NCBI RefSeq assembly: GCF_000473225.1
Contig: NZ_AXBG01000028.1
Coordinates: forward strand, 1 to 57,777
From: Sedimentitalea nanhaiensis DSM 24252
Lineage (GTDB): Bacteria > Pseudomonadota > Alphaproteobacteria > Rhodobacterales > Rhodobacteraceae
DNA: 57,777 nt
Reading direction: 5' to 3'
This document shows positions 15,331 through 37,256 of the stretch, piece by piece. The stretch's first letter is position 1, and the number at the start of each line of letters is the position of its first letter. The notes beneath the pieces are model-generated. The model was not told the DNA's origin. It did not search any database and saw only the letters and a list, made by a program, of their open reading frames with translations. The position numbers and the translations under genes are program-made.

Positions 15331-16452
15331 TCAGGCCACCTTGCCGCTGATCTGCGGCACGGCAGCCAGAAACGCGTCATTCTCGGCCGCTGTGCCCATG
15401 GTGACGCGCGCCCATGTCTGAAACGGCGCCTCCTGCCATGCCTTGATCAGGATCCCGGCGCGGCGCAGGCCCTCGGCAAACTCATTGGCGGGCTGGCCTG
15501 TGTCGAAAAAGACGAAATTGGTCTGGCTGGGCGCGCAGGGATAGCCCTTGGCGGTCAGCGCGGCGGCCACCCTGTCGCGCTCGGCCGCGGCGCACTGCAG
15601 CACGCGGTCCAGATGGGCGGTGTCGGCCAGCGCCTCGATCGCGCCTGCGGCGGCCATCGCGTTGACGCCGAAGGGATTGCGCGTCTTCATCAGCGCCCGG
15701 ATCATCGCGGGTGCGCTGGCGATGCCGTATCCCACCCGCGCGCCAGCCAGGCCGTAGGCCTTGGAGAAGGTGCGCAGCACGATATGGGGCTTGCCGGATG
15801 CGGCCAGTATCCCGAGCGCGTCAAAGCGGTGCTGCGGGTCGATGAATTCGACATAGGCCTCGTCGAAGCAGATCAGCGTCGCGGGGTCAGCGGCCTCCAC
15901 GATGGCGCGGAAGGCGTTTTCGCAGATTGCGGGGCCGGCCGGGTTGCTGGGCGACGAGAAGATCAGGATGCGCGGCGCGCTGCGCAATTCGGCTTTGATC
16001 GTCTCGACCGGAAAGGACCAGTCGGCCTCGAAAGGCAGCTTGGTCACCCGCGCGCCGAAGGTCAGCGCGCCGAACTCATGCAGGCCGAAACTCGGGCAGA
16101 TCGTGACCACGTGATCGCCTGCGCGGATCGTGGCCCGAAAGAGCGCCCCGATCAGATCTTCCGAACCATTGCCGACGATGATCCGGTCCGCCTCGGCCCC
16201 GGTGCTTCGCGCAATGGCGCTGCGCAGTGCGGTGTTGGCGGCATCGGGATAGCGCGCGACACCCTTTGCCGCCTCCCGCATCACCTCGATCGCGCGTGGC
16301 GACGGGCCAAGCGGGCTCTCGTTGCTGTCCAGCTTGGCCACGCAATCGATGCCGTATGCGTCGCGAAAACGATCCAGTGCCAAGCCGGCATTATACTCCG
16401 GCAGATCGCGCACATCCTTGCGGATCAGATCATCGGGAAGCGGGTGTGTCAT
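15331..16452 (-). CDS. HisC-like PLP aminotransferase
   Basis: A 373-residue class I/II aminotransferase closest in look to histidinol-phosphate aminotransferases: KLDSNESPLGPSP near the N-terminus, SSPSNPAG, and the PLP lysine in TFSKAYGLAGARVGYG. HisC relatives also accept aromatic 2-oxo acids. No other his biosynthesis gene is present. It sits 17 bases after an FAD-linked 2-hydroxyacid dehydrogenase in an operon headed by a transporter binding protein, so a catabolic role is more likely. Inferred reaction: interconversion of histidine (or a methylated histidine) and the imidazole-pyruvate. Start chosen at 16452 (MTHPLPDDLI). Its stop lies 16 bases from the broken tniA. Confidence 0.85.
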   Translation of the reverse strand: MTHPLPDDLIRKDVRDLPEYNAGLALDRFRDAYGIDCVAKLDSNESPLGPSPRAIEVMREAAKGVARYPDAANTALRSAIARSTGAEADRIIVGNGSEDLIGALFRATIRAGDHVVTICPSFGLHEFGALTFGARVTKLPFEADWSFPVETIKAELRSAPRILIFSSPSNPAGPAICENAFRAIVEAADPATLICFDEAYVEFIDPQHRFDALGILAASGKPHIVLRTFSKAYGLAGARVGYGIASAPAMIRALMKTRNPFGVNAMAAAGAIEALADTAHLDRVLQCAAAERDRVAAALTAKGYPCAPSQTNFVFFDTGQPANEFAEGLRRAGILIKAWQEAPFQTWARVTMGTAAENDAFLAAVPQISGKVA

Positions 16453-16469
16453 GGTTGCTGTCCTTGGCG

Positions 16470-17855
16470 TCAAAGGTCGAAAATCTTGCCGGGGTTCATG
16501 ATGCCGCCCGGATCAAGCGCGCGTTTGATCCGGCGCATCACATCGAGGGCGGGGCCGTGTTCGGCGTCGAGATACGCCTTCTTGCCGAGGCCGACCCCAT
16601 GCTCGCCCGTGCAGGTGCCGCCCATGGCGAGGGCCATCTCGATCAGGCTGCTGTTGATATGCCGCGCCTCGCGCACCTCATCCGCATCGGCCGGATCATA
16701 AAGCAGCACCAGATGGAAGTTGCCATCCCCGACATGCCCGACCAGCGGCGCGATGATCGAGGTGGTGGCGATCACGTCCATGATTCCGCTGATGCAAGCG
16801 GGCAGTTGCGAGACAGGCACGCAGACATCCGTGGAGATCCCCTTGATGCCGGGCCGCAGCGCACGCGCGGCATAAAGCGCGTCGTGCCGGATGCGCCACA
16901 GCTTCGATGCGGCCTCCGCCGTCTGGGCCGCCTCGAAGCGCAGCGCGCCCTCCGCCAGATCGCGCAGGATCGCCATGTCATGCGCCACGGCCGTTTCGGA
17001 TCCGGTCAGTTCGATCCAGAGAGTCGGATGTTCGGGAAGATCGGAGCCCGAATAGGCATTGATCGCGCGCATCTGGACGGTATCGGCCAGCTCGATCCGG
17101 TTCAGGCAAAGGCCGCATTGCAAGGCGGCCACGACCGTTTCGGTCGCCTTCCCGATGCTGGCGAAACTGCACATCGCGCTTTGCGCCGCCTCGGGGATTC
17201 CGAAAAGCCGCAAGGTCAGCTCGGTGATGATGCCGAGCGTGCCTTCGGAGCCGACCATAAGCCGCGTGAGATCATAACCGGCCGAAGATTTGCGCGCCCG
17301 ACCGCCGGTCTTGATGATCTGCCCGTCCGGCATGACCACGGTCAGCCCCAGCACCAGATCCCGCATCGAGCCGTAGCGCACGGTCGTCGTGCCTGAGGCG
17401 CGCGTTGCCGCCATGCCGCCAAGGGTTGCATGCGCGCCCAGATCGACGGGAAAGAAAAGCCCGGTGTCGCGCAGATGCTCGTTCAGCGCCTGCCGGGTGA
17501 CGCCGCAGGCGACGCGGCAATCCATATCCTCGGGATTGACCGCGATGATTTGGTCCATGCCGGACATGTCGATGCTGATGCCGCCGCGCGGTGCATGGAT
17601 CTGCCCCTCGAGCGACGATCCGGCGCCGAAGGGAATGACCGGCACGCCGTGCGTATGAGCGGCGCGCAGGATGTCCGCGATATCTTCGGTGGATGTCGCC
17701 ATGATCACGGCGTCAGGCCATTGGGGCGGAAGATGCGACTCGCCACTCCCGTGGTGCTCGCGTGCGGCGTCCGAGGTCAGCAGGCGCTCGCCGAACCGAT
17801 GGCGAAGTTCTTCCAAGGCGGCGGTGAGGCTGTCGGTTGCGGCGGGGGTGTCCAT
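16470..17855 (-). CDS. FAD-linked oxidase, D-lactate dehydrogenase/GlcD type
   Basis: A protein of about 461 residues with a vanillyl-alcohol-oxidase-type FAD domain (VIPFGAGSSLEGQ, then DLGAHATLGGMAATRASGTTTVRYGSM) and a C-terminal domain ending GEHGVGLGKKAYLDAEHG and LDPGGIMNPGKIFDL. This is the pattern of D-lactate dehydrogenases (cytochrome) and glycolate oxidase GlcD. Such enzymes oxidise D-2-hydroxy acids to 2-oxo acids and pass electrons to quinone or cytochrome. Next to a HisC-like aminotransferase, the plausible substrate is an imidazole-lactate, giving imidazole-pyruvate for transamination (inference). An upstream ATG at 17888 is in frame; 17855 gives the usual length. Confidence 0.85.
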   Translation of the reverse strand: MDTPAATDSLTAALEELRHRFGERLLTSDAAREHHGSGESHLPPQWPDAVIMATSTEDIADILRAAHTHGVPVIPFGAGSSLEGQIHAPRGGISIDMSGMDQIIAVNPEDMDCRVACGVTRQALNEHLRDTGLFFPVDLGAHATLGGMAATRASGTTTVRYGSMRDLVLGLTVVMPDGQIIKTGGRARKSSAGYDLTRLMVGSEGTLGIITELTLRLFGIPEAAQSAMCSFASIGKATETVVAALQCGLCLNRIELADTVQMRAINAYSGSDLPEHPTLWIELTGSETAVAHDMAILRDLAEGALRFEAAQTAEAASKLWRIRHDALYAARALRPGIKGISTDVCVPVSQLPACISGIMDVIATTSIIAPLVGHVGDGNFHLVLLYDPADADEVREARHINSSLIEMALAMGGTCTGEHGVGLGKKAYLDAEHGPALDVMRRIKRALDPGGIMNPGKIFDL

Positions 17856-17933
17856 GGGATGTGTCGACCTCGGGATCGGATGTGACAACGGGCCGCCGTT
17901 CCGGGCGGCCCGCCATATTGCAATTCTGCCCGA

Positions 17934-19490
17934 TCAGGCGTTGAACCACCAGCGTTCGCCGCAGCGGTTGCCGTCAAGGTCCCAGTCGCCCGAGATCTCT
18001 TCGGGCGTGCCCACCTTGGATGCCTTGGCATCGAGGAAGTCGGCCCAGACCGGTGCGATCAGCCCGCCCTCATCCGACAGGATGCGCTGGCATTCGTTAT
18101 AGAGCTCGCGGCGCTTGGCGTCGTCCTTTTCCGAACGGGCGGCGATCAGTGCGGTGTTGAATGCCTCGTTGTCCCAGTTGGTCGCGTTGTAGCCGCCTAA
18201 CGCCTCCTTGGAGTAGGCGAGGCTGAGCATCAGATCCTCGTTGGCACGGCCGGACCAGCGCGAGGCGAAGAACGGCTTCTTGCCCCAGATGTTCGACCAG
18301 TAGCCATCCTCGGGCTCGCGCGCGACATTGATGGTGACGCCTGCCTGCGCGGCATGCTCGGCAAAGAGCTGCGCGGCCTCCACGGCGCCGGTAAAGGGCG
18401 TGTTCGAGGCGTGCAGCGTCGTCGTCAGACCCTCGGCGCCCGCGTCCTTCAGTAGCGCTTTGGCCTGCTCGGGGTCATAGCTGTGCTGGGGCAGATCGGG
18501 GTTGTGATAGCGATAGGCGTTGGAAATCGGCTGGTCATTGGCGATCGAGCCATAGCCATTGAGAATCTTGTCGACCATGTCCTGACGGTCGATCGCCAGT
18601 TTCATCGCCTTGCGCACGCGCACGTCCTGGAACAGCGGATCGGTGGTCATCATGCTGAAGCAGTAATGCACCTTGCCCTGCGTCTGGACCAGATCGACGC
18701 CTGGCATGACGGCCATCAGATTGGCCGTTGTCGGATCGACCGAGTTCATCACGTCGATCTGCCCGGTCTGCAGCGCGGTCGTGCGCGCATTGACATCTCG
18801 GATCGCCAGCATCTCGATTTCGTCGAAATGGGCGCGATCGGATTTCCAGTAGTTGGGATTCTTGCGGACGATGGATTTGATGCCCGGCTCGTAGGTTTCG
18901 AGGATATAGCCGCCGGTGCCGATCCCGGCATCGAAATTCATGTCATCCTTGGGCACGATGACCATCGTGGTCAGCGCCATGACAGGGGGGAAGCCTGCAT
19001 TCGGCTCGTTCAGGGTGATCGTCACCTCGTCGGGGGCAGTGGCCTGAACGTCCTTGATCACGGCGACAAGGCTCTTGGTCTGGCTGATCGTGTCCGGTCC
19101 GCGATGCAGGTTGATCGAAAAGACCACGTCATCGGCATCCATCGTCTTGCCGTTGTGGAATTCGACCCCTTGGCGAAGCTTGAACACCCAGACGGTCAGA
19201 TCGTCATTGGATTCCCAGCTGGTGGCAAGCTCGGGCACCAGAACGCCGCCCGCCCCGATCTCGATCAGGTTGTTACGGATCTGCCATTGCAGGTTCTGCA
19301 TGAACTTGGTCTCATTCACCTGCGGATCCAGCGTCTCGCCCGAGTCGAAACTGCCGACCCCGAGGCGGAGAGTTCCGCCCGGCTGCGGCGTCGCCGCGCG
19401 CAAAGGCTGGCCCGAGAGGCCCAGAACGGCGGCGCCGCCCATGGCGCCCGCACCGATCAGGAGACTGCGTCGGTTCATTGAAATCGTCAT
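17934..19490 (-). CDS. Periplasmic binding protein of a peptide-type ABC transporter (family 5), Tat-exported
   Basis: A 518-residue extracytoplasmic solute-binding protein of the DppA/OppA family. The N-terminus MNRRSLLIGAGAMGGAAVLG is a twin-arginine-type signal. The mature part has the family layout (LDPQVNETKFMQNLQWQ, LATSWESNDDLTVWVFKLRQGVEFHNGK, AYRYHNPDLPQHSYDPEQAKALLKDAG). It is the first gene of an operon with the FAD enzyme and the HisC-like aminotransferase. The matching permeases and ATPase are in a separate operon at 23992-27445, since no other permease set is present in the island. A HutC-like half site lies 85 bases upstream. ATGs at 19490 and 19478 are both possible. Confidence 0.88.
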   Translation of the reverse strand: MTISMNRRSLLIGAGAMGGAAVLGLSGQPLRAATPQPGGTLRLGVGSFDSGETLDPQVNETKFMQNLQWQIRNNLIEIGAGGVLVPELATSWESNDDLTVWVFKLRQGVEFHNGKTMDADDVVFSINLHRGPDTISQTKSLVAVIKDVQATAPDEVTITLNEPNAGFPPVMALTTMVIVPKDDMNFDAGIGTGGYILETYEPGIKSIVRKNPNYWKSDRAHFDEIEMLAIRDVNARTTALQTGQIDVMNSVDPTTANLMAVMPGVDLVQTQGKVHYCFSMMTTDPLFQDVRVRKAMKLAIDRQDMVDKILNGYGSIANDQPISNAYRYHNPDLPQHSYDPEQAKALLKDAGAEGLTTTLHASNTPFTGAVEAAQLFAEHAAQAGVTINVAREPEDGYWSNIWGKKPFFASRWSGRANEDLMLSLAYSKEALGGYNATNWDNEAFNTALIAARSEKDDAKRRELYNECQRILSDEGGLIAPVWADFLDAKASKVGTPEEISGDWDLDGNRCGERWWFNA

Positions 19491-19574: not shown

Positions 19575-19588
19575 TATGTCTATTGTTA
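19575..19588. promoter_or_regulatory. Degenerate HutC-like site upstream of the binding-protein operon
   Basis: TATGTCTATTGTTA matches 11 of 14 bases of the core TATGTCTATACATA found before hutF and the formaldehyde dehydrogenase gene. The left half is exact. It lies between the divergent binding-protein gene and the LysR gene. Confidence 0.45.
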
Positions 19589-19690: not shown

Positions 19691-20632
19691 ATGCAATCCA
19701 CTCTTCCTCCCCTCCGTGCGCTTCAGGCCTTCGAAAGCTTCGGGCGGCTCGGTTCTGTCACGGCGGCGGCCAAGGAGCTGGGCGTGACGCCCGGCGCGAT
19801 CAGCCAGCAGATCAAGATCCTCGAGACGCAACTCAAGATCCCGCTGATCATGAAGGATGGCCGGCGCGCATCACTGGCCCCTGCCGCGCGGTCGTATCAC
19901 GACTTGCTGTCGGCCGGCTTCGCCAAGCTCCAGCAGGCGCAGGGGCTACTTGCCGAGCGGATGGCCGACCGGGACGTGAGTATCTCGGGGCTGCCGACCT
20001 TGCTGCTCAAATGGCTCAATCCGCGCCTTCACCGTTTCGAGGCGGCTCACGGCTCGGCCTCTTTCCGGCTTGAGGCCACCCATGTAGAGCCGGAACCGCA
20101 ATTCCTGAACCACATGTTCCGCCTGACCTATGGCGCGGCATCCGAGGTGCATCCGCATCGGCGCGCGCTCTTCCATGATGTCTGCTTTCCGGTCTGCGCG
20201 CCCGAATTCCTGGCGCGCCACCCCGAGGCGTCGGACCCTGAAGCGCTGGGATCGCTGCCGTGGGTCGATATCGACTGGGGTCCGGGCTATGCCAGCGTGC
20301 CGCGCCTTGGCGACTGGCTTGCGGCCCAAGATCAGCCGCGCCCCAGGCAGAAACCCGTCTCGATCCATTCTCTTTCCGGCTCGGCGCTGGAAGCTGTGGC
20401 AAGCGGGCAGGGCGTTGCCCTGGCGCAGCATTCATTTGCTTCGATGGATCTGAAGCTGGGACGGCTGGTGCGTTTGTCCGAGCAGTCCATCCCCATGCCT
20501 GAACCCTATTACATCTGTTGGTCGCCCATGCTGCTGGAGCATGATGTCTCGCGCAGGTTCCTGAACTGGATCCTGGCCGAGGCGCGCTCTGGCCAGGGCG
20601 CCGACCGATTTTCCATAAGGCAGGAAAACTAA
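19691..20632 (+). CDS. LysR-family regulator (GcvA-like)
   Basis: A 313-residue LysR protein. The N-terminal HTH reads LPPLRALQAFESFGRLGSVTAAAKELGVTPGAISQQIKILE, close to the GcvA group. The C-terminal effector-binding domain (FPVCAPEFLARHP, SALEAVASGQGVALAQHS) is complete. The ATG at 19691 (MQSTLPPLRAL) matches the family start; the frame opens earlier without a good start. It is divergent from the binding-protein operon and is followed 93 bases later by the Rieske oxygenase on the same strand. It is the obvious local regulator of one or both, alongside HutC. The effector is unknown. Confidence 0.9.
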   Translation: MQSTLPPLRALQAFESFGRLGSVTAAAKELGVTPGAISQQIKILETQLKIPLIMKDGRRASLAPAARSYHDLLSAGFAKLQQAQGLLAERMADRDVSISGLPTLLLKWLNPRLHRFEAAHGSASFRLEATHVEPEPQFLNHMFRLTYGAASEVHPHRRALFHDVCFPVCAPEFLARHPEASDPEALGSLPWVDIDWGPGYASVPRLGDWLAAQDQPRPRQKPVSIHSLSGSALEAVASGQGVALAQHSFASMDLKLGRLVRLSEQSIPMPEPYYICWSPMLLEHDVSRRFLNWILAEARSGQGADRFSIRQEN

Positions 20633-20725: not shown

Positions 20726-21766
20726 ATGTTTTTGAAGAACGCATGGTATGTCGCCGCATGGAGCGACGAGATCAAGGGCGAGCTGCAGCAGGTCAAGTTG
20801 CTGGGCGAGAAGATCTGTATGTTCCGCAACAGCCACGGCGAAGTCATCGCGATGGAGGATGCCTGCCCGCATCGCAAGCTGCCGCTCAGCAAGGGCCGGA
20901 TCAAGGATGACAATGTCGAATGCGGCTACCATGGCCTGACCTTCGATTGCGCGGGCCAATGCGTCTGGGCGCCGGGAGGCGGGCGCATCCCCTCGGCCGC
21001 CAAGGTGCGTCCCTATCCGGTGCATGAGAAATACGGGCTGGTCTGGATCTGGATGGGCAATGCGGCGATCGCGGACCCCGAGGACATCATCGACATCCCG
21101 AATTTCGACAATCCCGAATGGGGCATCAATCGCGGCGCGGCGATGGAGCTGAACTGCAATTACTTGCTGATGTGCGACAACCTGCTCGATCCGACGCATG
21201 TGGCCTGGGTCCACGAGTCCTCCTTTGCGGCCGCGGCGACCAAGGACACGCCGCTGCGCGTGACCAAGACCGACACGGGCGTCATCGTCCACCGCTGGAT
21301 GATGGATCACGAGCCCGCGCCCTTCTACAAGAAGGTTGTCGAGTTCGAGGGCAATTGCGACCGTCTGCAGCATTACGAAGTGCGCTATCCCAGCCACGCG
21401 CTGATCCGCGCCGTGTTCACCCCCGCCGGAACCGGCGGCGTCGATGGCACCCTGCACGAGAAGACGTTTGTCATGGACAGCTACAACTTCATGACGCCTA
21501 CTACCGAGACCGAGACGCGCTATTACTGGTTCCAGCTGCGCAATATCCGTCCTGACGACGAAGAGCTGTCGAAAATGATGAGCGAGGACGTGCGCAGCGC
21601 ATTCGAAGAGGATCGCGCCGTTCTGAACGAGGTGCAGATCGGCATGACCGAAAAAACTTCACCGCATATCGACCTGCATATCGACGCGGGCCAGCTGCGA
21701 TTCCGGCGGCAACTGGAAGCGATGATCGCCGAAGAGGCGATGGTCGACGCCAAGATGAGCCAGTGA
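20726..21766 (+). CDS. Rieske non-haem iron oxygenase, VanA/Ndm-like (probable demethylase)
   Basis: A 346-residue Rieske oxygenase alpha subunit. The 2Fe-2S site is Cys47-x-His49 and Cys66-x2-His69 (ACPHR and VECGYHG). The mononuclear iron site lies in CDNLLDPTHVAWVH (His158 and His163, bridging Asp 151/155), with a late acidic ligand around EEDRAVLNE. The start MFLKNAWYVAAWSDEI and LVWIWMGN are typical of the VanA group of O- and N-demethylases (vanillate, dicamba and caffeine demethylases). It is followed one base later by its reductase. Inferred job: oxidative removal of a methyl group from an imidazole compound, releasing formaldehyde. Ring hydroxylation cannot be excluded. An AGGAG ribosome-binding site precedes the ATG. 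Confidence 0.88.
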   Translation: MFLKNAWYVAAWSDEIKGELQQVKLLGEKICMFRNSHGEVIAMEDACPHRKLPLSKGRIKDDNVECGYHGLTFDCAGQCVWAPGGGRIPSAAKVRPYPVHEKYGLVWIWMGNAAIADPEDIIDIPNFDNPEWGINRGAAMELNCNYLLMCDNLLDPTHVAWVHESSFAAAATKDTPLRVTKTDTGVIVHRWMMDHEPAPFYKKVVEFEGNCDRLQHYEVRYPSHALIRAVFTPAGTGGVDGTLHEKTFVMDSYNFMTPTTETETRYYWFQLRNIRPDDEELSKMMSEDVRSAFEEDRAVLNEVQIGMTEKTSPHIDLHIDAGQLRFRRQLEAMIAEEAMVDAKMSQ

Positions 21767-21767
21767 C

Positions 21768-22928
21768 ATGGCTGGCGGTTTCCGCGCGTTCCGGGTCGCT
21801 CGCAAGCTGCGCGAGAGCGACATCATCACCTCCTTTTATCTCGAGCCGGCGGATGGGGCGCCGCTCTGGTCTCCGTTGCCCGGTCAATACCTGACACTGC
21901 GGGTGCCGGGCGCGGACGCTCCGGTGCTCAAGACCTATTCGGTCTCGAACCATGTTTCCGACGGGCAGGCCCACCGCATCACGGTGAAACGCGAGGCGGG
22001 GCAGGGCGGCGCGCCCGATGGCGTGGGATCGTGCTGGCTTCACGACGGGGTGCAGGAAGGCGACCAGATCGAGATCGCGGCCCCGCGCGGCGGTTTCGTC
22101 CTCGACGAGACAAGCCGCCGTCCCGTTCTGCTCCTGTCGGGCGGGGTCGGGCTGACGCCGCTTGTGTCGATGCTGCACAGCCTCAAGGATAGCGGGCGCG
22201 ACGTCTATTTCATCCACGCCTGCGAGAATGGCGCGGTCCACGCGCTGCGCGATGAAGTCGAGGCGCTTGCAGGTGGCAACATCCGCACTCTCTTTGTCTA
22301 TCGCACGCCCACGGATGAGGACCGCAGCGCCGCGCGCCATCATGCCGAGGGCATGATCCACAAGGCGTTTCTGCAAGATCACGTCCCCATCGGCGACTAT
22401 GAGGCATATTTGTGCGGCCCCGCTCCGTTCATGGCGGCGATGTATCAGTTGCTGCAGGAACTGGGCCTGCCGAAGGACCGGATTGCCTATGAGTTCTTTG
22501 GCAAGGCCATGTCGCTGGACCAGATGAGTGCCACGCCTGCAGAAAAGCCGTCTAAAGCGGCGTCGAAGGCGGCGGCCTCCATCCGCTCGCTGACCTTTCT
22601 GACCAATCCCGATGCTTGGGCCAGCGACGAAACCGCGGTCGAGCTGGCCCCAAAGGCTGCGCCCGTTGCGGCCGTGGGCGATGTGACCTTCCGTAAATCC
22701 GGCAAGGCAGCGACATGGGATGGCAGTGCGGCCTCCTTGTTGGAGCTGGCCGAGAATGCCGGCCTCAATCCTGAATTCAGCTGTCGCGCCGGGATCTGCA
22801 ACTCGTGCAAATGCGCGCTTGTGTCGGGCGAGGTCGAATATTTCGAGGATCCGCTGAACCCGCCCGCGCCGGGCGAGGTGCTGATCTGCTGCGCCCGCCC
22901 CAAGGGGGCCGTAGTGCTGGATATCTAG
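21768..22928 (+). CDS. Ferredoxin-NAD(P)H reductase component of the oxygenase
   Basis: A 386-residue electron-transfer protein: an FAD domain resembling that of flavohaemoglobin (PGQYLTLRVPG, then KTYSVSN), a nicotinamide domain (LLLSGGVGLTPLVSML, then YLCGPAPFM), an Ala/Lys-rich linker at about residues 255-300, and a C-terminal plant-type 2Fe-2S domain with Cys339, Cys344, Cys347 and Cys374 or 375 (SCRAGICNSCKCAL). This architecture supplies electrons to Rieske oxygenases that act on small N- or O-methyl compounds. It starts one base after the oxygenase stop. Its stop overlaps that of the convergent deacylase gene. Confidence 0.9.
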   Translation: MAGGFRAFRVARKLRESDIITSFYLEPADGAPLWSPLPGQYLTLRVPGADAPVLKTYSVSNHVSDGQAHRITVKREAGQGGAPDGVGSCWLHDGVQEGDQIEIAAPRGGFVLDETSRRPVLLLSGGVGLTPLVSMLHSLKDSGRDVYFIHACENGAVHALRDEVEALAGGNIRTLFVYRTPTDEDRSAARHHAEGMIHKAFLQDHVPIGDYEAYLCGPAPFMAAMYQLLQELGLPKDRIAYEFFGKAMSLDQMSATPAEKPSKAASKAAASIRSLTFLTNPDAWASDETAVELAPKAAPVAAVGDVTFRKSGKAATWDGSAASLLELAENAGLNPEFSCRAGICNSCKCALVSGEVEYFEDPLNPPAPGEVLICCARPKGAVVLDI

Positions 22929-27476: not shown

Positions 27477-27491
27477 TATGTCTAGACTATA
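27477..27491. promoter_or_regulatory. HutC-like palindrome before the transporter operon
   Basis: TATGTCTAGACTATA, with the perfect palindrome GTCTAGAC at its centre, lies 31 bases upstream of the DppB-type gene. It shares TATGTCTA with the operators before hutF and the formaldehyde dehydrogenase gene. Confidence 0.55.
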
Positions 27492-27639: not shown

Positions 27640-28329
27640 ATGAATGCCACTTACAAGGATGTGAAATCGGACATCCTGTCCAAGATCACCAGCGGCCATT
27701 GGCAGCCCGGCAGCCTTATCCCGAACGAGATCGAGCTTGCGGAAACCTATGGCTGCGCCCGCGCGACCGTGAACCGCGCTATGCGCGAGCTGGCGGATGA
27801 CGGCCTGATCGAGCGGCGGCGCAAGGCAGGCACGCGAGTCCGCGCAAGTCCGATCCGGCAGGCGCGTTTCGACATTCCGCTTGTGCGCCGCGAGATCGAG
27901 GACAAGGGCGCCGAATATCGCTACAGCCTTGCGTCGCGCAGCATCGAGACTGCGCCCGACTGGCTGCGCACGCGGCTTCAGCTGGGGCAGGGGGCCGACG
28001 CGCTGCACCTCGTCTGCATGCATTACGCCGATGGCGATCCGTTCCAGCACGAGGATCGCTGGATCAATCTCGAGGTTCTGCCGCAGGCGCGAGATGCCGA
28101 CTTCTCGCAGGTCGGGCCCAATGAATGGCTGGTTTCGACCATTCCCTTCTCGACGGCCGAGATCAGCTTTTCCGCCACGCTGGCCGATAGGGCGCTGGCC
28201 GAGTATCTGGCCTGCGACACCGGTGCGCCGCTTTTTACAGTCGAACGGGCGACGTGGTTCGAGGGGGATGCAAACACCTTCGTCCGGCTCACGTACCGCC
28301 CCGGCCACCGGATGACGACGCGCTATTGA
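27640..28329 (+). CDS. hutC: Histidine utilisation repressor HutC (GntR family)
   Basis: A 229-residue GntR/HutC protein. The N-terminal winged HTH reads SGHWQPGSLIPNEIELAETYGCARATVNRAMRELADDGLIERRRKAGTRV. The UTRA effector domain contains the HutC-type stretches HEDRWINLEVLPQARDADFSQVGPNEWL and ends VRLTYRPGHRMTTRY. HutC senses urocanate in studied bacteria and releases hut promoters. It is divergent from the transporter operon and followed 27 bases later by a PLP enzyme gene. Copies of a common palindrome near several island promoters fit its role as regulator of the island. Confidence 0.92.
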   Translation: MNATYKDVKSDILSKITSGHWQPGSLIPNEIELAETYGCARATVNRAMRELADDGLIERRRKAGTRVRASPIRQARFDIPLVRREIEDKGAEYRYSLASRSIETAPDWLRTRLQLGQGADALHLVCMHYADGDPFQHEDRWINLEVLPQARDADFSQVGPNEWLVSTIPFSTAEISFSATLADRALAEYLACDTGAPLFTVERATWFEGDANTFVRLTYRPGHRMTTRY

Positions 28330-29538: not shown

Positions 29539-31206
29539 TCAGAGGATGCCGGGCAGGTTCAGCCCCTGCTTGCGGGCGCAGTCCAGCGCCTCCTCATAAC
29601 CCGCATCGGCATGGCGCATGACGCCGGTGGCCGGATCGTTCCAGAGGACACGCGCGATGCGGCGGTCGGCATCCTCGCTACCATCACAGCAGATCACCAT
29701 GCCCGAGTGCTGGCTGAAGCCCATGCCGACGCCGCCGCCATGGTGCAGCGACACCCAGGTCGCGCCCGAGGCGGTGTTCAACAGCGCATTGAGCAGCGGC
29801 CAGTCGGATACGGCATCGCTGCCGTCCTTCATTGCCTCCGTCTCGCGGTTGGGCGATGCGACCGAGCCTGAATCAAGGTGATCGCGGCCGATCACGATGG
29901 GCGCGCTCAGCTCGCCACTGCGGACCATCTCGTTGAAGGCGAGGCCCAGCTTGTGACGCACCCCGAGGCCGACCCAGCAGATGCGCGCGGGCAAACCCTG
30001 AAAGCTGATCCGCTCGCGCGCCATATCGAGCCAGTTGTGCAGATGCGTGTCCTCCGACAGGATCTCCTTCACCTTGGCGTCGGTCTTGTAGATATCCTCG
30101 GGATCACCCGAGAGGGCAGCCCAGCGGAAGGGGCCGATGCCGCGGCAGAAAAGCGGGCGAATATAGGCGGGGACGAATCCCGGGAAGGCAAAGGCATTCT
30201 CCAGCCCTTCCTCCAGCGCGACCTGGCGGATGTTGTTGCCATAGTCCAGCGTCGGCACACCCGCGTTCCAGAAATCGACCATCGCGGCGACATGCACCTT
30301 CATGCTGGCGCGGGCGGCTTTCTCGACGGCCTTGGGATCGCTCTCGCGCTTGTCGCGCCACTGGGCCATGGTCCAGCCCTGCGGTAGGTAGCCATTGACC
30401 GGATCGTGGGCACTGGTCTGGTCGGTGACGATATCGGGATGCACGCCGCGCTTGACCAGCTCGGGAAAGACATCGGCGGCATTGCCCAATAGGGCGACCG
30501 ACTTGGCCTCGCCCGCCTTGGTCCAGCGGTCGATCATTTCCAGCGCCTCGTCCAACGTCTCGGCCTTTTCATCGACATAGCGGGTGCGCAGGCGGAAATC
30601 GATGCTGTCGGGATTGCACTCGACCGCGAGGCAGCAGGCGCCGGCCATCACGGCGGCGAGCGGCTGCGCGCCGCCCATGCCGCCAAGTCCGCCGGTCAGG
30701 ATCCACTTGCTGGTCAGATCGCCATCGTAGTGCTGGCGGCCGGCCTCGACGAATGTCTCGTAGGTGCCCTGAACGATGCCTTGGCTGCCGATATAGATCC
30801 ACGATCCGGCGGTCATCTGGCCGTACATCGCCAGACCCTTCTTATCCAGTTCGTTGAAATGGTCCCAGGTCGCCCAATGTGGCACGAGGTTGCTGTTGGC
30901 GATCAACACGCGCGGCGCGTCCTTGTGGGTCTGAAAGACGCCCACGGGCTTGCCCGATTGCACCAGCAGCGTCTGATCCTCTTCGAGATCCTTGAGGCTG
31001 GCCACGATGGTGTCGAAATCGTCCCAGGTGCGCGCGGCGCGCCCGATGCCGCCATAGACGACCAGCTCGTGCGGGTTTTCGGCCACATCGGGATGCAGGT
31101 TGTTCATCAGCATCCGCATGGGCGCTTCGGTCATCCAGGTCTTGGCTGTGATCTCGCTGCCGGTCGCGGGATAGATGTCGCGCGTGTTCTTGCGGGAATT
31201 GCTCAT
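29539..31206 (-). CDS. hutU: Urocanate hydratase HutU
   Basis: A 555-residue protein that aligns by eye over its whole length with urocanase: [40 protein letters not shown] at the start, [13 protein letters not shown] for NAD binding, and [37 protein letters not shown]. The enzyme uses tightly bound NAD to turn urocanate into imidazolone propionate. It is the last gene of hutI-hutH-hutG-hutU and overlaps hutG by four bases (ATGA), so the operon is translationally coupled. Intact and of normal length. Confidence 0.98.
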
Positions 31207-32015
31207 GAGGTGCCTCCGGGCGTGAGTTTTGCGATAAGGGCCGGATCGGCCAGTTGGGTCAGAATGTCCTTGAGGGGACGGCGCAGACGCTCGGCCTTGG
31301 CGCTGTCATAGCTCCAAGGCGGATTTTCGGCGCTCAGATAGGTCGCTTGCGACAGTTCCATCTGGATGGCGTGTATGCCGTGCGTGGGCTGGCCATAGTG
31401 ACGCGTCGTCCAGCCGCCCTTGAAACGTCCGTTGAGCACGCTGTTATAGCCTTCGGCAGCGGCGCAAACGTCCTGGACAATGGCTTCGATCGCGGGATCG
31501 CAGGTGGCGCCCATATTGTTGCCGATGCTGAAATCGGGCAGCACGCCATCGAAAAGAAACGGGATTTCCGAACGGATCGAATGGCAGTCATAGAGGATCG
31601 CGATGCCGTGGATCGCCTTCACCCGCTCCATCTCGGCTTTGAGAGCTGCGTGGTAGGGCGCGTGATAGCTCAGGCGGCGCTCTTCGATTTCGTCCGTGTC
31701 GGGCGCGCGGTGCCAGATGTCATGCCCGTCGAAATCGGTCAGCGGCACGAGGCCGGTGGTGTTCTGACCGGGATAGAGCGACGCGCCCGACGGGTCGCGA
31801 TTGGCGTCGATCACATAGCGGTGGAAGGTCGCCCGCACCGTCGTGGCACCGGGCAGCAGCCCGTCATAGAGCCGCTCGATATGCCAATCGGTATCGTCGA
31901 GGCCGCGGCCCCGCTCGTTCAGATCCGCCATGATCGCGTCCGGCACATGGGTGCCCGTATGGGGCAGGCCCAGAACGATGGGGCTGTCGCCGCGGGTAAC
32001 TTCTACAGGTGTCAT
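31203..32015 (-). CDS. hutG: N-formylglutamate deformylase HutG
   Basis: A 270-residue N-formylglutamate amidohydrolase of the FGase family: [68 protein letters not shown], and a C-terminal [23 protein letters not shown]. It is the final step of the five-step route and gives glutamate and formate. It is not the formiminoglutamase also called HutG in some bacteria, which agrees with the presence of hutF. Overlaps both neighbours by four bases. Confidence 0.95.
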
Positions 32016-33550
32016 GCGCCCAGCTCCGGCATCGGGGTGCCCGCCGCCTCGATGATGGCGCCCGTGGCGATCATCTGCGCCGCGCGCTCCAGATCGGGGG
32101 CCATGTAGCGGTCATCGCCCAGCGTCTTGACCTCTTGGCGCACACGCGCGACAACGCGGGCCAGCGCGGCGCTGGTGGCCAATGGTGCGCGGAAATCGAC
32201 GCCCTGCGCCGCGCAAAGAAGTTCCACCCCGAGGATGCGGGTGAGGTTGTCCAGCATCGGCATCAGGCGCCGCGCGCCATGCGCCGCCATGCTCACGTGA
32301 TCTTCCTGATTGGCGGAAGTGGGCGTGCTGTCGGTAACGCAAGGATTGGCCAGATGCTTGTTCTCGCTCATCAATGCGGCGGTTGTGACTTCGGCGATCA
32401 TGTAGCCCGAATTCAGCCCCGGACGCGGCGTCAGGAAGGCAGGCAGATCGTGGCTGAGCACCGGATCGACAATCAGCGCGACGCGCCGCTGGGCGATGGC
32501 GCCGATCTCGGCCACGGCCAGCGCGATCATGTCGGCGGCAAAGCCGACCGGCTCGGCATGAAAGTTACCGCCCGAGACGATCAGATCCGCCTCGGTCAGC
32601 ACAAGCGGATTGTCCGTTGCTGCATTCGCCTCGATTTCCAGCGTTCGCGCGGCCTGGCGCAGCACATCCATCGCGGCGCCCGTCACCTGCGGCTGGCAGC
32701 GGATGCAATAGGGATCCTGCACGCGCGCGTCGCCGTCCACATGGCTTTCGCGGATTTCCGAACCGCTGAGCAGCGCGCGCATCGTCTCGCCTGCCTCGAT
32801 CTGACCGCGATGCCCGCGAAGCTGGTGAATTTCGGGCTGCAAGGGTGCGGTCGAGCCCATGATGGCGTCCGTCGAGAGCGCGGATGTGACCAGCGCGGAA
32901 TGCGCCGCGCGCCATGCGCCGAACAGGCCCGCCAGCGCGAAAGCGGTGGAGAATTGCGTGCCGTTGATCAGCGCCAGCCCCTCTTTGGGGCCCAGCTCGA
33001 TCGGGCTGAGGCCCGCGGCCTCCAACGCCTTGTCGCCCGCCATCACCGTGCCGCCGAATTCGGCCTCGCCATGGCCCATCATGACGGCCGCCATATGCGC
33101 AAGCGGTGCCAGATCGCCCGACGCCCCGACCGAGCCCTGGGCCGGGATCTGGGGCGTCACGCCCTTGTCCAGCATCGCTTCGATCAGATGTGTCAGCTCG
33201 AGCCGCACACCCGACGCGCCGCGCCCGAGGCTGAGCAGCTTGAGCGCCATCAGCAGCCGCGCCATGCGGCGCGGAATGGCCGGACCGACGCCGCAGCAAT
33301 GCGACAGGATCAGGTTGCGCTGCAGCGTGGCCGTATCCTCGGACGCGATTTTGACAGAGGCCAGCTTGCCAAAGCCGGTATTGACGCCATAGACGGCATC
33401 GGTTCCGGCGACGGCGCGGGCGATCCGCGCATGGGCGCGCTCGATATCCGGATGGCACGCGGGATCGAGGCGCACGGCGGCCTCGCTCCAATAGATCTGC
33501 GCCAGATGGTCCAGCGTCACGGCGCCGGGCGTCAGGGTAAGCGTGGTCAC
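32012..33550 (-). CDS. hutH: Histidine ammonia-lyase HutH
   Basis: A 512-residue histidine ammonia-lyase. The self-processing Ala-Ser-Gly triad that forms the MIO cofactor is in [24 protein letters not shown] and [15 protein letters not shown] are further signatures. It converts histidine to urocanate and ammonia. The start is taken as the GTG at 33550, which overlaps the hutI stop (GTGA) and follows a GGAGG ribosome-binding site; an upstream start would run into hutI. Intact. Confidence 0.97.
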
Positions 33551-34758
33551 GAAATGCCTCCGAAGATACGGGAATGAAGCGGGTTGAACCCGATGCGATA
33601 GCTCAGCTCGGCCGGTGTCTTGACCTCCCAGACGGCCAGATCGGCGCGCTTGCCCTCGGCGATGGTTCCGCAATCATCTAGCCCCAGTGCGGCAGCCGCG
33701 TTGCGCGTCGCGCCGGCCAGCGCCTCTTCGGGCGTCATGCGAAAGAGGGTGCAGGCCATGTTCATGGTCAAGAGCAGCGAGGTCAGGGGGGACGAGCCGG
33801 GGTTGTTGTCGGTCGCCAGCGCCATCGGCACGCCTGCCTTGCGCAAGGCGGCGATGGGTGGGGCCTGGGTCTCGCGGATGGTGTAGAAGGCGCCGGGCAG
33901 GATGACGGCGATGGTGACGGCCTTCGCCAGCGCGGCGACGCCGGCATCGTCCAGATATTCGATGTGATCTGCCGAGATGGCGCCATGCTCTGCCGCCATG
34001 ATCGCGCCTCCGAGGTTCGACAGCTGCTCGGCATGGATCTTGACCGGCAGTCCCAGCTCGCCCGCAACGTCAAAGACGCGGCTGACCTGTTCGGGCGAAA
34101 AGGCGATGCCTTCGCAAAAAGCGTCGACCGCGTCGACCAGCCCTTCGGCATGGGCCTTGCGCAGAGTGGGGATGCAGACCTCGTCTATATAGGCGTCGGG
34201 GCGGCCGTCATATTCGGCTGGCACCGCATGCGCGCCGAGGAACGTGGTGCAGACCCGCACCGGACGCTCGTGCCCGATGCGGCGCGCGGCGCGTAGCATC
34301 CGCAGCTCGGTCTCGGTGTCGAGGCCGTAGCCCGATTTGATTTCCAGCGTGCATACGCCCTCGGAGAGCAGCGCATCGACGCGGGGCAGGGCATCCGCCA
34401 CCATCCGGTCCACATCCGACGCGCGGGTTGCCGTCACGGTCGAGACGATGCCGCCGCCGGCGCGCGCCACCTCTTCGTAGCTGGCGCCGTTGAGGCGCAT
34501 CTCGAACTCGCCCGCGCGGTCGCCGCCATGCACGACGTGGGTGTGGCAGTCGATCAGGCCGGGCGTCACGAGGCGCCCCCCGAGGCTCTGCCCCGCTGTG
34601 CCGTCATACCGGGACGGCAGATCCGCGCGCGGGCCGACCCAGGCGATTCGCGCATCCTTGACGACGATCGCGGCATCTTCGATCAGGCCATAAGCGTCAC
34701 CCCCCGGCACCATGGTTGCGGCTGTAAAATCGACGTAAAGGGTGCTGCTATCTGTCAT
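33547..34758 (-). CDS. hutI: Imidazolonepropionase HutI
   Basis: A 403-residue amidohydrolase: metal ligands in [22 protein letters not shown], then [17 protein letters not shown] and [10 protein letters not shown], which together mark imidazolonepropionase. It opens the imidazolone ring to formiminoglutamate. It heads the hutIHGU operon. The ATG at 34758 ([11 protein letters not shown]) is used; the open frame extends far upstream through the antisense of hutF but has no support there. A perfect copy of the HutC-like operator lies 51 bases upstream, between hutI and hutF. Confidence 0.96.
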
Positions 34759-34809
34759 AAACTGTCCAAAATGGCTGAGGTTTCGCTTTTCCAACGGCTT
34801 TGGGCGCTG

Positions 34810-34827
34810 TATATGTCTATACATAAA
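34810..34827. promoter_or_regulatory. HutC operator between hutI and hutF
   Basis: TATATGTCTATACATAAA contains the inverted repeat TATGT-CTAT-ACATA. It ends 18 bases before the hutF ATG and begins 51 bases before the hutI ATG. The same 18 bases occur at 36826-36843. Binding by HutC is inferred from position and repetition. Confidence 0.8.
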
Positions 34828-34845
34828 CTTTCGAAAGGCAGTCAA

Positions 34846-36204
34846 ATGATTTTCGCGAAACAGGCGCTTCTGGCGGATGGGTGGGCTGGCGATGTCCGGT
34901 TGAGCATGGAGGCCGGCACGATCACCGAGGTGACCGCAGGCGCCAGCGCCGGGCCGGATGATTTGCGCGTCGACACAGTTTTGCCCGCGCTTGCCAACCT
35001 GCACAGCCACAGCTTTCAGCGCGCGATGGCGGGCATGACGGAATACCGCGCAGCTGGCAAAGACAGCTTCTGGACATGGCGCGATCTGATGTATCGCTTT
35101 ACCGCGCATCTCAGCCCCGAGCATATCGAGGCGTTTGCCGCCTTCGTTTTCCTCGAAATGCAGGAGGCGGGATATGCCAGCGTCGGCGAGTTTCATTACC
35201 TGCATCACCAGCCGGACGGCGGGCCTTATGACAATCTGGCAGAGCTTTCGGCGCGTATCGCTGCCGCCGCGCAGGTGTCGGGCATCGGCCTGACGCATCT
35301 GCCGGTGCTTTATACCTATGGCGGCGCGGGACAGACGCCGTTGCAGCCGGGACAGGCACGATTCGGCAACAGCGTGGATCGTTTCGGCGATCTGGTCGCG
35401 CATGCGCGCCGAGCGGTGGCAGAGCTGCCCGAGGATTGCCGCGTCGGCATCGCGCCCCATTCTCTGCGCGCCACCTCGCCGGATGATCTGGCGGCCGCGC
35501 TGGCCGCGCATGAGGGCGGCCCCGTCCATATCCACATCGCCGAGCAGCCCAAGGAGGTCACCGATATCGAGGCGTGGCTGGGCGCGCGCCCTGTCGACTG
35601 GCTGTTTGCGAATGCCGATGTCACGCCGGAATGGTGCCTGATCCACGCCACCCACATGACCGACGCCGAAACGCGGGCGATGGCCCATTCAGGCGCGGTT
35701 GCGGGCCTGTGCCCGATCACCGAGGCCAATCTGGGCGATGGCCCGTTCAACGGACCCGCCTATCTGCAGGCGCGCGGGGCCTTCGGCATCGGGTCGGACT
35801 CCAACGTGCGGATCTCACTGACCGAGGAGTTGCGCACGCTGGAATATTCGCAGCGGCTGCGCGACATGGCGCGCAATGTCATGGTCGTCGAGGAGGGGTC
35901 GGTTGGTCACATGCTCTATACCGGCGCGGCGCGCGGCGGGGCGCAGGCCCTGGGCCGCAACTCGGGCACGATCGCAGTGGGCCAGCTGGCCGATCTGGTG
36001 GCGATCGACAGCCAGGACACCGCGCTGATGGCGCTGCCGCGCCACCAGTTGCTGGATGGTCTGGTCTTTGCCGCGACGGACGGCGCGGTGAGCGATGTCT
36101 GGTCTGCCGGGCGGCACATGGTCAAGGACGGGGCGCATGTCGCGCGCGAGGGGATCGTCGCGCGCTATCGCGCCGCGATGCACAGCGTTATGGCCGCGCT
36201 CTGA
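34846..36204 (+). CDS. hutF: Formimidoylglutamate deiminase HutF
   Basis: A 452-residue amidohydrolase with [23 protein letters not shown] (metal-binding His pair), [28 protein letters not shown] and [26 protein letters not shown], the HutF pattern. It hydrolyses formiminoglutamate to formylglutamate and ammonia, which HutG then cleaves. It is divergent from hutI with a shared operator. The ATG at 34846 follows GAAAGG. Its 3' end overlaps the convergent hutD by 40 bases. Confidence 0.95.
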
Positions 36205-36749
36205 TCAAGATACCGCAAGGATATCTCCAGCAGAGCGTCGCCCTCGGCCAGCTCCAGATCCGCAGGCCCATTCAAAAACGCGGTATCGGCAACCGACAGC
36301 GCATCGCCCGCAACACGCGGGCTGCCATGAACGACGTGAATCGCCGTGATCCCGGCAGGCGGGGGGGTTACATCCCGCGCCGCCGGACCACGCAACAGGC
36401 GGACCGCGCCGTCGCAATGGGCCGGATCGAACATCAGGTTCAGATCGGTCAGCGGCCCGTCCAGCAGGCGCGCCGTGACGGGCAGGCCCCCATCGAACGC
36501 CACCGGCTTTAGCGGATCGGCGCGCAGGGTGCCATCCGTGTGCACAAGGTCCATGCCAGCGCCGGAGATAACGGTAAGGACTCGCCGCAGCCCCGCGAAA
36601 TTCGAGAAAGGCCCATCCCCGGCCACATCAGCCCGGCTCAGTCGCCATGCCGGGCCAAGGGCCGTCTTGCCTTCTGCGATATTGCGGGTGATGCCGCCGC
36701 CGTTCTTCCACGACACCTCCACTAGATCGACGCCCTTCAGCAGCTGCAT
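36165..36749 (-). CDS. hutD: HutD family protein
   Basis: A 194-residue cupin-like protein with the HutD signature VSWKNGGGITRNIAEG at the N-terminus and RLSRADVAGDGPFSNFAGLRRVLTVISG. HutD occurs in hut clusters and in Pseudomonas is thought to limit hut activity, perhaps by sensing formylglutamate. It is convergent with hutF (40-base overlap) and divergent from the formaldehyde dehydrogenase gene; the HutC operator at 36826 lies 77 bases upstream and could serve both. Confidence 0.93.
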   Translation of the reverse strand: MQLLKGVDLVEVSWKNGGGITRNIAEGKTALGPAWRLSRADVAGDGPFSNFAGLRRVLTVISGAGMDLVHTDGTLRADPLKPVAFDGGLPVTARLLDGPLTDLNLMFDPAHCDGAVRLLRGPAARDVTPPPAGITAIHVVHGSPRVAGDALSVADTAFLNGPADLELAEGDALLEISLRYLDQSAAITLCIAAR

Positions 36750-36825
36750 GATTTCTTCCTTTCATCCCAGATGACGCCAAATGCTTGACGGGGCCAGTCA
36801 CGCTTTCTACAGCGTGGTGACGCCT

Positions 36826-36843
36826 TATATGTCTATACATAAA
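36826..36843. promoter_or_regulatory. HutC operator before the formaldehyde dehydrogenase gene
   Basis: TATATGTCTATACATAAA, identical over 18 bases to the site before hutF. It ends 17 bases before the adhI ATG, the same placement as at hutF, and is 77 bases from the divergent hutD start. Confidence 0.8.
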
Positions 36844-36860
36844 TTCAAGTGAGATCTGCA

Positions 36861-37256
36861 ATGAGAACACGCGCCGCCGTGGCCCTCGAGGCCGGAAAAC
36901 CCATGGAGATCATGGAAGTGAACCTCGACGGCCCGAAAAAGGGCGAGGTTTTGGTCGAGATCAAGGCAACTGGTCTGTGCCATACCGACGATTTCACCCT
37001 CTCGGGCGCCGATCCCGAGGGCGCGTTCCCGGCGATCCTCGGCCATGAGGGCGCGGGCGTCGTCGTCGAAGTGGGCGAGAGCGTGACCTCGCTCGAGGTG
37101 GGCGATCATGTGATCCCGCTCTACACGCCCGAATGCCGCGAGTGCGAGTATTGCCTGAACCCCAAGACGAACCTCTGCCAGTCGATTCGCGCGACCCAAG
37201 GGCAGGGTGTGAGGGAGTGGGCAAAACTTGGGGGTCATGCGGCTGCTCTTTGGTAG
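36861..37256 (+). pseudogene. S-(hydroxymethyl)glutathione dehydrogenase, truncated by an IS
   Basis: The first 116 residues are a class III alcohol dehydrogenase (glutathione-dependent formaldehyde dehydrogenase): [17 protein letters not shown], the catalytic zinc ligands in [13 protein letters not shown] and LGHEGAGVV, the structural zinc cluster [15 protein letters not shown], and SIRATQGQG, typical of class III. At 37211 the ISKra4-type element begins and the frame runs into unrelated sequence, ending at 37256. The intact enzyme is about 370 residues and makes S-formylglutathione. Its place behind a HutC operator suggests that formaldehyde is made when the hut genes are on. The lost activity could be supplied by another copy in the cell. 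Confidence 0.88.

Follow-up and report, generated by a model that had tools for sequence, protein, structure and literature searches.

Plasmid-borne histidine utilization genes with a linked Rieske oxygenase in Sedimentitalea nanhaiensis: a proposed route for substituted histidines

The island and its replicon

Textbooks present histidine utilization (hut) as a pathway fed by histidine and urocanate, and methylated or otherwise substituted histidines are abundant in vertebrate muscle and fish. This work concerns an island of Sedimentitalea nanhaiensis DSM 24252 in which a Rieske non-haem iron oxygenase stands beside hut genes. The window, i.e., the whole stretch of DNA analysed, is a contig of 57,777 bases (NZ_AXBG01000028.1), part of a 4.95-Mb genome; it bears RepC and a ParA-type protein and is therefore plasmid DNA (RepABC type). 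Genes were checked against Pfam and NCBIfam models, with NCBIfam scores judged by the curated cut-offs, and the island comprises the following features.

15331..16452, minus strand: HisC-like class I/II aminotransferase (Aminotran_1_2; start by gene model)
16470..17855, minus strand: FAD-linked D-2-hydroxyacid dehydrogenase, LDHD type (FAD_binding_4 and FAD-oxidase_C; start by gene model)
17934..19490, minus strand: periplasmic solute-binding protein of a peptide-type ABC importer (SBP_bac_5)
19575..19588, unstranded: degenerate HutC-like operator between the solute-binding protein and LysR genes (3 mismatches)
19691..20632, plus strand: LysR-type regulator (HTH_1 and LysR_substrate; start by gene model)
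20726..21766, plus strand: Rieske non-haem iron oxygenase, VanA/DdmC type, proposed demethylase (Rieske and VanA_C)
21768..22928, plus strand: reductase partner with FAD, NAD and C-terminal 2Fe-2S domains (FAD_binding_6, NAD_binding_1, Fer2)
22925..23995, minus strand: AstE/AspA-type zinc hydrolase, DoeB-like (PF24827, AstE_AspA catalytic domain; start by gene model)
23992..25623, minus strand: fused double ATPase of the ABC importer (two ABC_tran stretches and oligo_HPY)
25627..26484, minus strand: ABC permease, DppC type (Pfam)
26489..27445, minus strand: ABC permease, DppB type (Pfam)
27477..27490, unstranded: degenerate HutC-like operator between the permease and hutC genes (3 mismatches; similar sites in related loci)
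27640..28329, plus strand: HutC repressor, GntR/UTRA (TIGR02018, 281.4 bits, cut-off 220)
28357..29496, plus strand: DSD1-like PLP enzyme, D-3-hydroxy-amino-acid dehydratase type (D-ser_dehydrat and Ala_racemase_N)
29539..31206, minus strand: HutU urocanase (TIGR01228, 955 bits, cut-off 375)
31203..32015, minus strand: HutG N-formylglutamate deformylase (TIGR02017, 367 bits, cut-off 279)
32012..33550, minus strand: HutH histidine ammonia-lyase (TIGR01225, 681 bits, cut-off 539; start by gene model)
33547..34758, minus strand: HutI imidazolonepropionase (TIGR01224, 475 bits, cut-off 298; start inferred from the 403-aa gene of related locus L033)
34812..34825, unstranded: HutC-like operator TATGTCTATACATA between hutI and hutF (exact)
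34846..36204, plus strand: HutF formimidoylglutamate deiminase (NF006684, 645 bits, cut-off 525; start inferred from the L033 annotation)
36165..36749, minus strand: HutD family protein (PF05962)
36828..36841, unstranded: second exact HutC-like operator, between hutD and frmA
36861..37256, plus strand: 5' fragment of frmA, S-(hydroxymethyl)glutathione dehydrogenase, interrupted (TIGR02818 positions 2-116 of 368, at 36867-37211)

The five-step Hut set (HutH, HutU, HutI, HutF, and HutG) and HutC all score above the curated cut-offs, with HutD recognized by Pfam. A sequence-only reading of the same DNA had named these and the other enzymes, and every gene it named is in its place, including what it called the start of a formaldehyde dehydrogenase, which is indeed a fragment; the list had left out the LysR-type regulator (19691-20632). 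The names HisC-, DoeB-, GlcD-, and BhcC-like are family level only, because the scores lie below the NCBIfam cut-offs. The HisC-like enzyme reaches 270.2 bits for TIGR01141, just below the cut-off for HisC of 276.55, in the PDB it comes closest to HisC and to a putative phenylalanine aminotransferase, and we propose it as a candidate imidazolepyruvate:amino-donor aminotransferase. The LDHD-like enzyme, with 317 bits for the GlcD model (cut-off, 568) and mitochondrial D-lactate dehydrogenase (8jdc, E 1e-128) as its nearest PDB entry, is proposed as a putative D-imidazolelactate dehydrogenase. The AstE/DoeB-like enzyme (229.7 bits for TIGR02994, the DoeB model, with a cut-off of 402.7; nearest PDB entries, 3cdx and DoeB 6twl/6twm) is proposed as a possible amide or acyl hydrolase. 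The DSD1-like enzyme is nearer to D-threo-3-hydroxyaspartate dehydratase (3wqc, E 1.5e-117) than to the D-3-hydroxyaspartate aldolase BhcC (NF045642, 121.8 bits, cut-off 690), and the solute-binding protein is closest in the PDB to the family 5 binder 8efz and to heme, peptide, and nickel binders.

The G+C content of the island (15331-37211) is 0.646, compared with 0.581 and 0.567 on either side. The island aligns at 91.7% identity, over query bases 1-21872 of 21926, with a Pseudohalocynthiibacter aestuariivivens plasmid (NZ_CP049041; locus L033), so that it is a real unit and no chance assembly; frmA is annotated on that plasmid at full length, and in the window an ISKra4-family transposase gene (37235-38140) follows the frmA fragment. 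The 4.41-Mb contig of the host, its chromosome, holds a second hut cluster. Genes for a Mu-type transposase, TniB, and TniQ lie to the left of the island (window positions 11035-14355), and the NZ_CP049041 island is likewise bordered by TniB and TniQ genes; the island may therefore be transposon cargo. Elsewhere on the plasmid are genes for ArdC-like antirestriction and Fic-domain proteins (1341-3729, left of the RepC gene) and, in its right part, a TRAP transporter (DctM, DctP; 41078-43536).

The Rieske oxygenase and its linkage to hut genes

The oxygenase has a VanA_C domain (PF19112; 160 bits, cut-off 23.5). It had been described as VanA/Ndm-like, of which the VanA part stands and the Ndm part was rejected, because sequence comparison favours DdmC and 7QWT as its closest solved relatives, ahead of NdmA and NdmB. 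The matches to NdmA (E 3e-14, query residues 22-125) and NdmB (E 1e-13, residues 23-166) extend over the N-terminal part only and fall short of full-length homology. The Rieske ligands C-x-H...C-x2-H are C47, H49, C66, and H69, kept in 112 of 115 relatives and gapped in three, and the 2-His-1-Asp iron site (H158, H163, and D296) with the bridging D155 is conserved in 115 of 115. Iron-site residues were placed through alignment to DdmC and its ligand numbering. Two further positions, N230 and H251, which have functional roles in DdmC, are replaced by R or K and by N, respectively, each in 114 of the 115 relatives. R or K at the place of N230 would suit a substrate bearing a carboxylate.

Linkage was assessed in 80 loci of 78-99% identity, the best of 581 confirmed in a search of genome contigs with an alignment of 23 relatives. 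Loci on short contigs were counted with whatever flank was present, and "DNA examined" denotes the stretch available for each locus. Gene calls cover the loci other than L001-L032, L062, and L143-L151; L063, L101, L126, and L133 are the same records as L033, L043, L045, and L046 and were kept in locus and promoter counts and left out of the tree. Hut enzyme genes are present in the DNA examined of 40 of the 80 loci by gene calls and of 41 by tblastn (L114 starts inside hutU). The Rieske gene lies directly after hutU on the same strand in 15 loci and adjoins hutC in 7 others, and HutC occurs with no hut enzyme gene in 5 further loci. There are two main arrangements, the plasmid-type island and the operon hutF / hutI-hutH-hutG-hutU-Rieske. 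Litoreibacter arenae DSM 19593 and Litoreibacter halocynthiae DSM 29467 are examples of strains with the hutU-Rieske operon, and Paracoccus seriniphilus DSM 14827 is one with the island. Among more distant relatives (52-61%), the gene is near hutU in L052, L054, and L060 and near hutH and hutC in L055 and L056. Reductase, HisC-like, and FAD enzyme genes are absent from the DNA examined of all 15 hutU-Rieske loci, which suggests that the oxygenase and Hut are all that the core function requires side by side, a reductase being supplied from elsewhere.

The same picture emerges from 295 genomes drawn evenly from the family, in which proximity was defined as a Rieske homologue within 10 kb of a urocanase gene. 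This was found for 7 of 18 homologues at ≥77% identity, 2 of 11 at 58-63%, 4 of 37 at 47-55%, and 0 of 22 at ≤42%, such that the share drops with distance from the window protein; we estimate chance proximity at ∼0.5% per gene. The survey rows include five places with one internal stop (G018, G035, G111, G290, and G348) and one partial match (G219), and the places for G044, G071, G083, G105, and G279, listed separately, leave all counts unchanged. Linkage was also found on a 4.19-Mb single-contig genome (G059). In a tree of 115 Rieske proteins (8 rows from L143-L151), built by a quick method and with many weak branches, the two hut-linked groups are scattered, and the starred branches alone force at least 8 and at least 5 changes (gains or losses). 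Of the 107 rows whose neighbourhood was scored, 51 are hut-linked, a label that needs 23 hut/no-hut changes, and the hut-linked L049, L097, and L112 sit on early branches of the close clade. Chance gene content is rejected by this recurrent linkage, and the possibility allowed for in the sequence-only reading, that oxygenase and hut genes are never found together elsewhere, is contradicted by their joint occurrence in many other records.

Related islands with hut genes are carried on plasmids of Paracoccus seriniphilus, Mameliella alba, Paracoccus yeei, and Leisingera caerulea. Plasmid islands of P. methylovorus and Gemmobacter fulvus have no hut enzyme gene annotated in the stretch viewed and encode a GntR regulator that clusters with HutC, and plasmids of Sulfitobacter W027 and Thalassospira marina have LysR, Rieske, and reductase genes and no hut in the stretch viewed.

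HutC-like operators and formaldehyde genes

The hutI/hutF and hutD/frmA intergenic regions have 18 identical bases in common, TATATGTCTATACATAAA, which span the operator TATGTCTATACATA. The palindrome TATGTNTANACATA occurs with zero mismatches at 34812-34825 and 36828-36841, and with at most one mismatch its only further place in the 4.95-Mb genome is the chromosomal hutI/hutF promoter; because a reversed control pattern also has three matches per strand genome-wide, equal to the operator count of three, position rather than number is the evidence. The motif TATGTNTANACATA was first read off two of its three places (the hutF and frmA promoters) and then tested on other loci. With up to three mismatches, the window has four sites (19575, 27477, 34812, and 36828), all in island promoters, a number not above chance (mean of 3.3 in shuffles). 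The island operator resembles the Pseudomonas HutC core, given as TGTA-N2-TACA in the accessible part of PMC12977541; that core has no match in the window, and a looser string has one, at 38566, outside the island.

A matrix was trained on hutF promoters of 22 loci without a reductase gene (11 distinct sites), and its threshold was set at the 99% level of 673 background genes. All eight island hutF promoters lie above this level. So do 6 of 44 island-type Rieske genes, with best sites mostly 43-54 bases before the start (rank test p of 1.7e-7, where p-values are overstated and descriptive only, since the loci are related and L063 repeats L033). Further sites above the level were found for the solute-binding protein (8/34), permease (4/32), HisC-like (1/33), and FAD enzyme (1/30) genes, and none for reductase (0/44) or AstE (0/24) genes. 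For comparison, the counts were 0 of 35 for orphan Rieske genes and 1 of 31 for Rieske genes in reductase-less hut loci. The Thalassospira copies L038 and L089 retain an operator site, with no hut in the DNA examined.

The window's frmA fragment reaches 190 bits for TIGR02818 over positions 2-116, short of full length, and two full-length chromosomal copies on the 4.41-Mb contig pass at 594.8. In the DNA examined, frmA was found in 7 of 43 island-type loci (the window, L033, L034, L040, L042, L076, and L099) versus 3 of 67 others (L049, L051, and L075); it is also annotated at the edge of L041, and L041, L042, and L149 have an annotated gfa alongside. Only 2 of the 10 frmA promoters, those of the window and its near relative L033, exceed the 99% level. 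In L034 the site is just below it, L076 passes only from the hutD side, and L040, L042, L049, L051, L075, and L099 are below.

The features that define a HutC regulon, a HutC equivalog and a common operator at target promoters, are both present, the operator being identical at hutF and frmA. Operator-like sites fit predicted HutC control of the island, including frmA. In Pseudomonas putida, urocanate releases HutC, according to the accessible part of PMC12772324. The available text of a comparative HutC regulon study (PMC5343134) names hut genes, transporters, and his genes and no Rieske, oxygenase, frmA, or formaldehyde gene.

Proposed pathway, alternatives, and known systems

We propose, with a probability of roughly 55%, that the island is a mobile "histidine-plus" unit, i.e., a HutC-controlled peripheral pathway that would convert a substituted histidine to L-histidine and on to glutamate. 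Three lines of evidence place the Rieske oxygenase with hut, as had been suggested from the sequence alone: recurrent linkage in several arrangements, HutC-like operators that include the frmA promoter, and a formaldehyde dehydrogenase gene in the same unit. In the simplest reading, a histidine derivative would be demethylated oxidatively to yield histidine, with formaldehyde as the by-product, and frmA, hut linkage, and the HutC-like operators fit a demethylase feeding histidine. The steps might be as follows. (i) The ABC importer would take up a histidine derivative, from which the AstE/DoeB-like enzyme, where present, could strip an acyl or aminoacyl group. (ii) The oxygenase and its reductase would oxidize a methyl group, which would leave as formaldehyde and most likely sits on an imidazole nitrogen, as it does in a methylhistidine; this step is suggested by the enzyme family, the frmA link, and hut linkage. 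(iii) FrmA, under a HutC-like operator, would clear the formaldehyde; the plasmid gene is broken, and the chromosome has two full-length copies. (iv) HutH, HutU, HutI, HutF, and HutG would degrade histidine to glutamate, with certainty at the level of their families.

The scheme of the sequence-only reading fits as far as a demethylase feeding Hut is concerned, but it gave no role to the LDHD-like, HisC-like, and DSD1-like enzymes, which could fit a second entry through imidazolepyruvate. By family, the LDHD-like enzyme may oxidize D-imidazolelactate to imidazolepyruvate, the DSD1-like dehydratase, where present, may act on 3-hydroxy-D-histidine and also feed imidazolepyruvate, and the HisC-like enzyme may transaminate imidazolepyruvate to histidine. 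The pairing of FAD dehydrogenase and aminotransferase suggests such a further entry from imidazolelactate through imidazolepyruvate to histidine. The window, L033, and L064 have a DSD1-like gene in their islands; copies ∼70% identical to the island gene also lie ∼2 kb from the hutU-Rieske pair in L104 (12827-13975) and L119 (12887-14011).

Several observations weigh against this pathway, in addition to the chance-level operator counts, the derivation of the motif from two of its own places, and the frmA promoters below the matrix level. First, no operator-like site precedes the Rieske gene of the window itself (best score, −1.1). Second, gene calls show neither a hut enzyme gene nor hutC nor a reductase gene in 25 of the 80 loci (or in 24, with L114 taken as a hut locus), and no urocanase match was found in the genomes of 7 of the 18 close homologues (G289, G080, G265, G201, G268, G102, and G290), two of which are only 84% and 62% complete; such copies imply that in these settings the enzyme either can act independently of Hut or does something different. 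Third, Shinella, Roseateles, and Rhizobium have islands in which Rieske, HisC-like, and FAD enzyme genes are retained and no hut gene is annotated in the stretch viewed. Fourth, the deacylation step, which the sequence-only reading had included, has its candidate gene in the window, but that gene is missing from otherwise complete islands, e.g., those of P. seriniphilus and Mameliella (L034 and L037). Finally, O-demethylation or hydroxylation is possible for the VanA-type family, and the nearest PDB enzymes include DdmC.

Among alternatives, the oxygenase could act on methylated imidazolelactate or imidazolepyruvate rather than methylhistidine, with LDHD-like oxidation and transamination as obligate later steps. 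The HisC-like and FAD enzyme genes do accompany the Rieske gene in distant islands, whether or not hut is there, and the FAD enzyme is nearest to D-lactate dehydrogenase; the 15 hutU-Rieske loci, in which neither gene nor the reductase gene was found in the DNA examined, argue that the common hut-linked function does not require them close by. We also know of no abundant natural N-methylimidazolelactate, and this alternative is unlikely.

A substrate methylated at the alpha nitrogen (hercynine, or dimethyl- or methylhistidine), demethylated stepwise with the help of a second, GbcA-like Rieske enzyme, appears similarly improbable. Clustering puts a second Rieske protein, of the Ring_hydroxyl_A type (Pfam on L041), close to the first in L034, L041, L056, and L076, but in those four loci only, and the remote likeness to GbcA in L041, L056, and L076 amounts to 132-141 bits, against a cut-off of 670. 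A GbdR-like regulator gene follows the Rieske gene in hut-linked L103, L119, L124, L126, and L136 (family named on L126), and Rieske relatives of 50-62% identity stand beside sarcosine-oxidase-like genes (L061, L145, and L146). VanA_C-type enzymes are not known as the classical quaternary-ammonium demethylases.

Slightly less probable still is that no methyl group is involved and that the oxygenase hydroxylates or ring-oxidizes a side product of histidine, such as an imidazole acid or an imidazolonepropionate by-product. Such chemistry is known for Rieske enzymes, as far as the accessible part of a review goes (PMC12445004), and would agree with a Rieske gene directly after hutU in 15 loci and with frmA in only 10 of 110 loci. 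The recurrence of frmA and gfa in islands, the identical operator of frmA and hutF in the window, and DdmC, an O-demethylase, as the closest solved enzyme named for a reaction favour demethylation instead. A generic xenobiotic demethylase unit merely travelling with hut on plasmids, which the frequent copies without hut, hutC, or reductase genes and the plasmid and transposon context might suggest, is very improbable given linkage on a 4.19-Mb single-contig genome, in at least two arrangements and in distant relatives, and given the recurrence of operator-like sites. A thiourocanate/ergothioneine route was also considered and set aside, the island HutU scoring as an ordinary urocanase.

Extending the demethylation pathway beyond this host is more tentative, and we regard it as somewhat less probable than the proposal for the island itself. 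Aerobic bacteria may possess a dedicated HutC-controlled route for methylated histidines (methylhistidines from actin or anserine, perhaps deacylated first), in which a new Rieske N-demethylase clade stands in the hut operon of many marine Rhodobacterales and has operators in common with formaldehyde dehydrogenase, the full island adding an imidazolelactate/imidazolepyruvate entry. If so, the hut regulon has an oxygenase branch that admits methylated and otherwise substituted histidines, genes are named for methylhistidine breakdown, possibly an overlooked route in marine bacteria, and substrate and mechanism can be tested with one purified enzyme pair. The route is a new peripheral branch of a known pathway; all of its enzyme families are already known. 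A literature search, with most subscription papers outside its reach, found no paper joining a Rieske enzyme to methylhistidine or hut and no bacterial methylhistidine or imidazolelactate pathway.

The neighbourhoods of related Rieske genes hold further genes. Plasmids of Pseudomonas fragi (from meat) and P. bubulae (L143 and L144) carry a 59%-identical Rieske gene in one block with genes for LysR, an ABC importer annotated as histidine type, DUF2817, and a reductase, in keeping with a possible muscle-derived histidine compound as the substrate. In Shinella (L042, 15450-17414), DUF2817 is fused to an ABC ATPase domain, joining a hydrolase-like domain to a transporter subunit, and DUF2817 genes of similar size are annotated in L147, L149, and L151 (Rhizobium, Roseateles, and another Shinella island). 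Genes for a CoA-transferase III and an acyl-CoA dehydrogenase lie inside the hut operon of L100 (5122-7466, between hutG and hutU; Pfam) and near the Rieske islands of L041 (1322-3665) and L056 (14886-17242; both by clustering), and such a pair is among the annotated names of a Thioclava plasmid hut match; this could be a route from imidazolepropionate to urocanate.

A PhyH-family 2-oxoglutarate oxygenase gene adjoins the Rieske gene in L113, L122, L135, L134, L104, and L100 and is one gene away in L086. Its product (Pfam on L104) has as its nearest solved protein MysH, which acts in mycosporine-like amino acid biosynthesis, and some of these loci also have a GbdR-like regulator. A creatinase gene lies within ∼1.2 kb of the Rieske gene in L124, L126, L130, and L135 and at ∼7 kb in L069; the L126 product is nearest in the PDB to creatine amidinohydrolase (E 4e-157), the other copies being assigned by clustering. 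Creatinase occurs in 196 of the 295 family genomes and in 16 of the 18 with a close Rieske homologue, and among 13 of these 18 with a listed creatinase place, compared by eye, only G101 has it near the Rieske gene. Since creatinase is common in the family, its neighbourhood is only a hint of muscle metabolites. Rieske genes without hut near the MysH-like oxygenase, GbdR-like regulator, or creatinase genes indicate that close homologues also live outside hut.

At locus L061 (3845001-3864000) on the host chromosome, soxB/soxA-like sarcosine-oxidase genes adjoin a Rieske relative of 51% identity, and Rieske and sarcosine-oxidase-like pairs occur also in L051 (clustering), L145, and L146 (annotation). 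Mgd reportedly contributes to homarine catabolism (PMC13390433). The L061 relative can be likened to this catabolism of homarine and N-methyl amino acids in marine bacteria, and that it belongs to a homarine or another N-methyl amino acid pathway is a guess.

Three better-characterized systems frame the island. NdmA and NdmB, so far as the source available describes them, are Rieske N-demethylases that act on a methylated N-heterocycle, as proposed for the island oxygenase, but the sequence match is weak and N-terminal only; we know of no hut context for caffeine clusters. The O-demethylases VanA and DdmC share with the island oxygenase the VanA_C family and the conserved Rieske and iron ligands; in contrast to DdmC, the island enzyme has R or K for N230 and N for H251, and its context is histidine rather than aryl ethers. 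With the five-step hut system of Pseudomonas (HutH, HutU, HutI, HutF, and HutG, with HutC), the island has in common all five enzymes, HutC, HutD, and a similar operator, to which it adds a Rieske oxygenase, a reductase, a hydrolase, an FAD dehydrogenase, an aminotransferase, and frmA.

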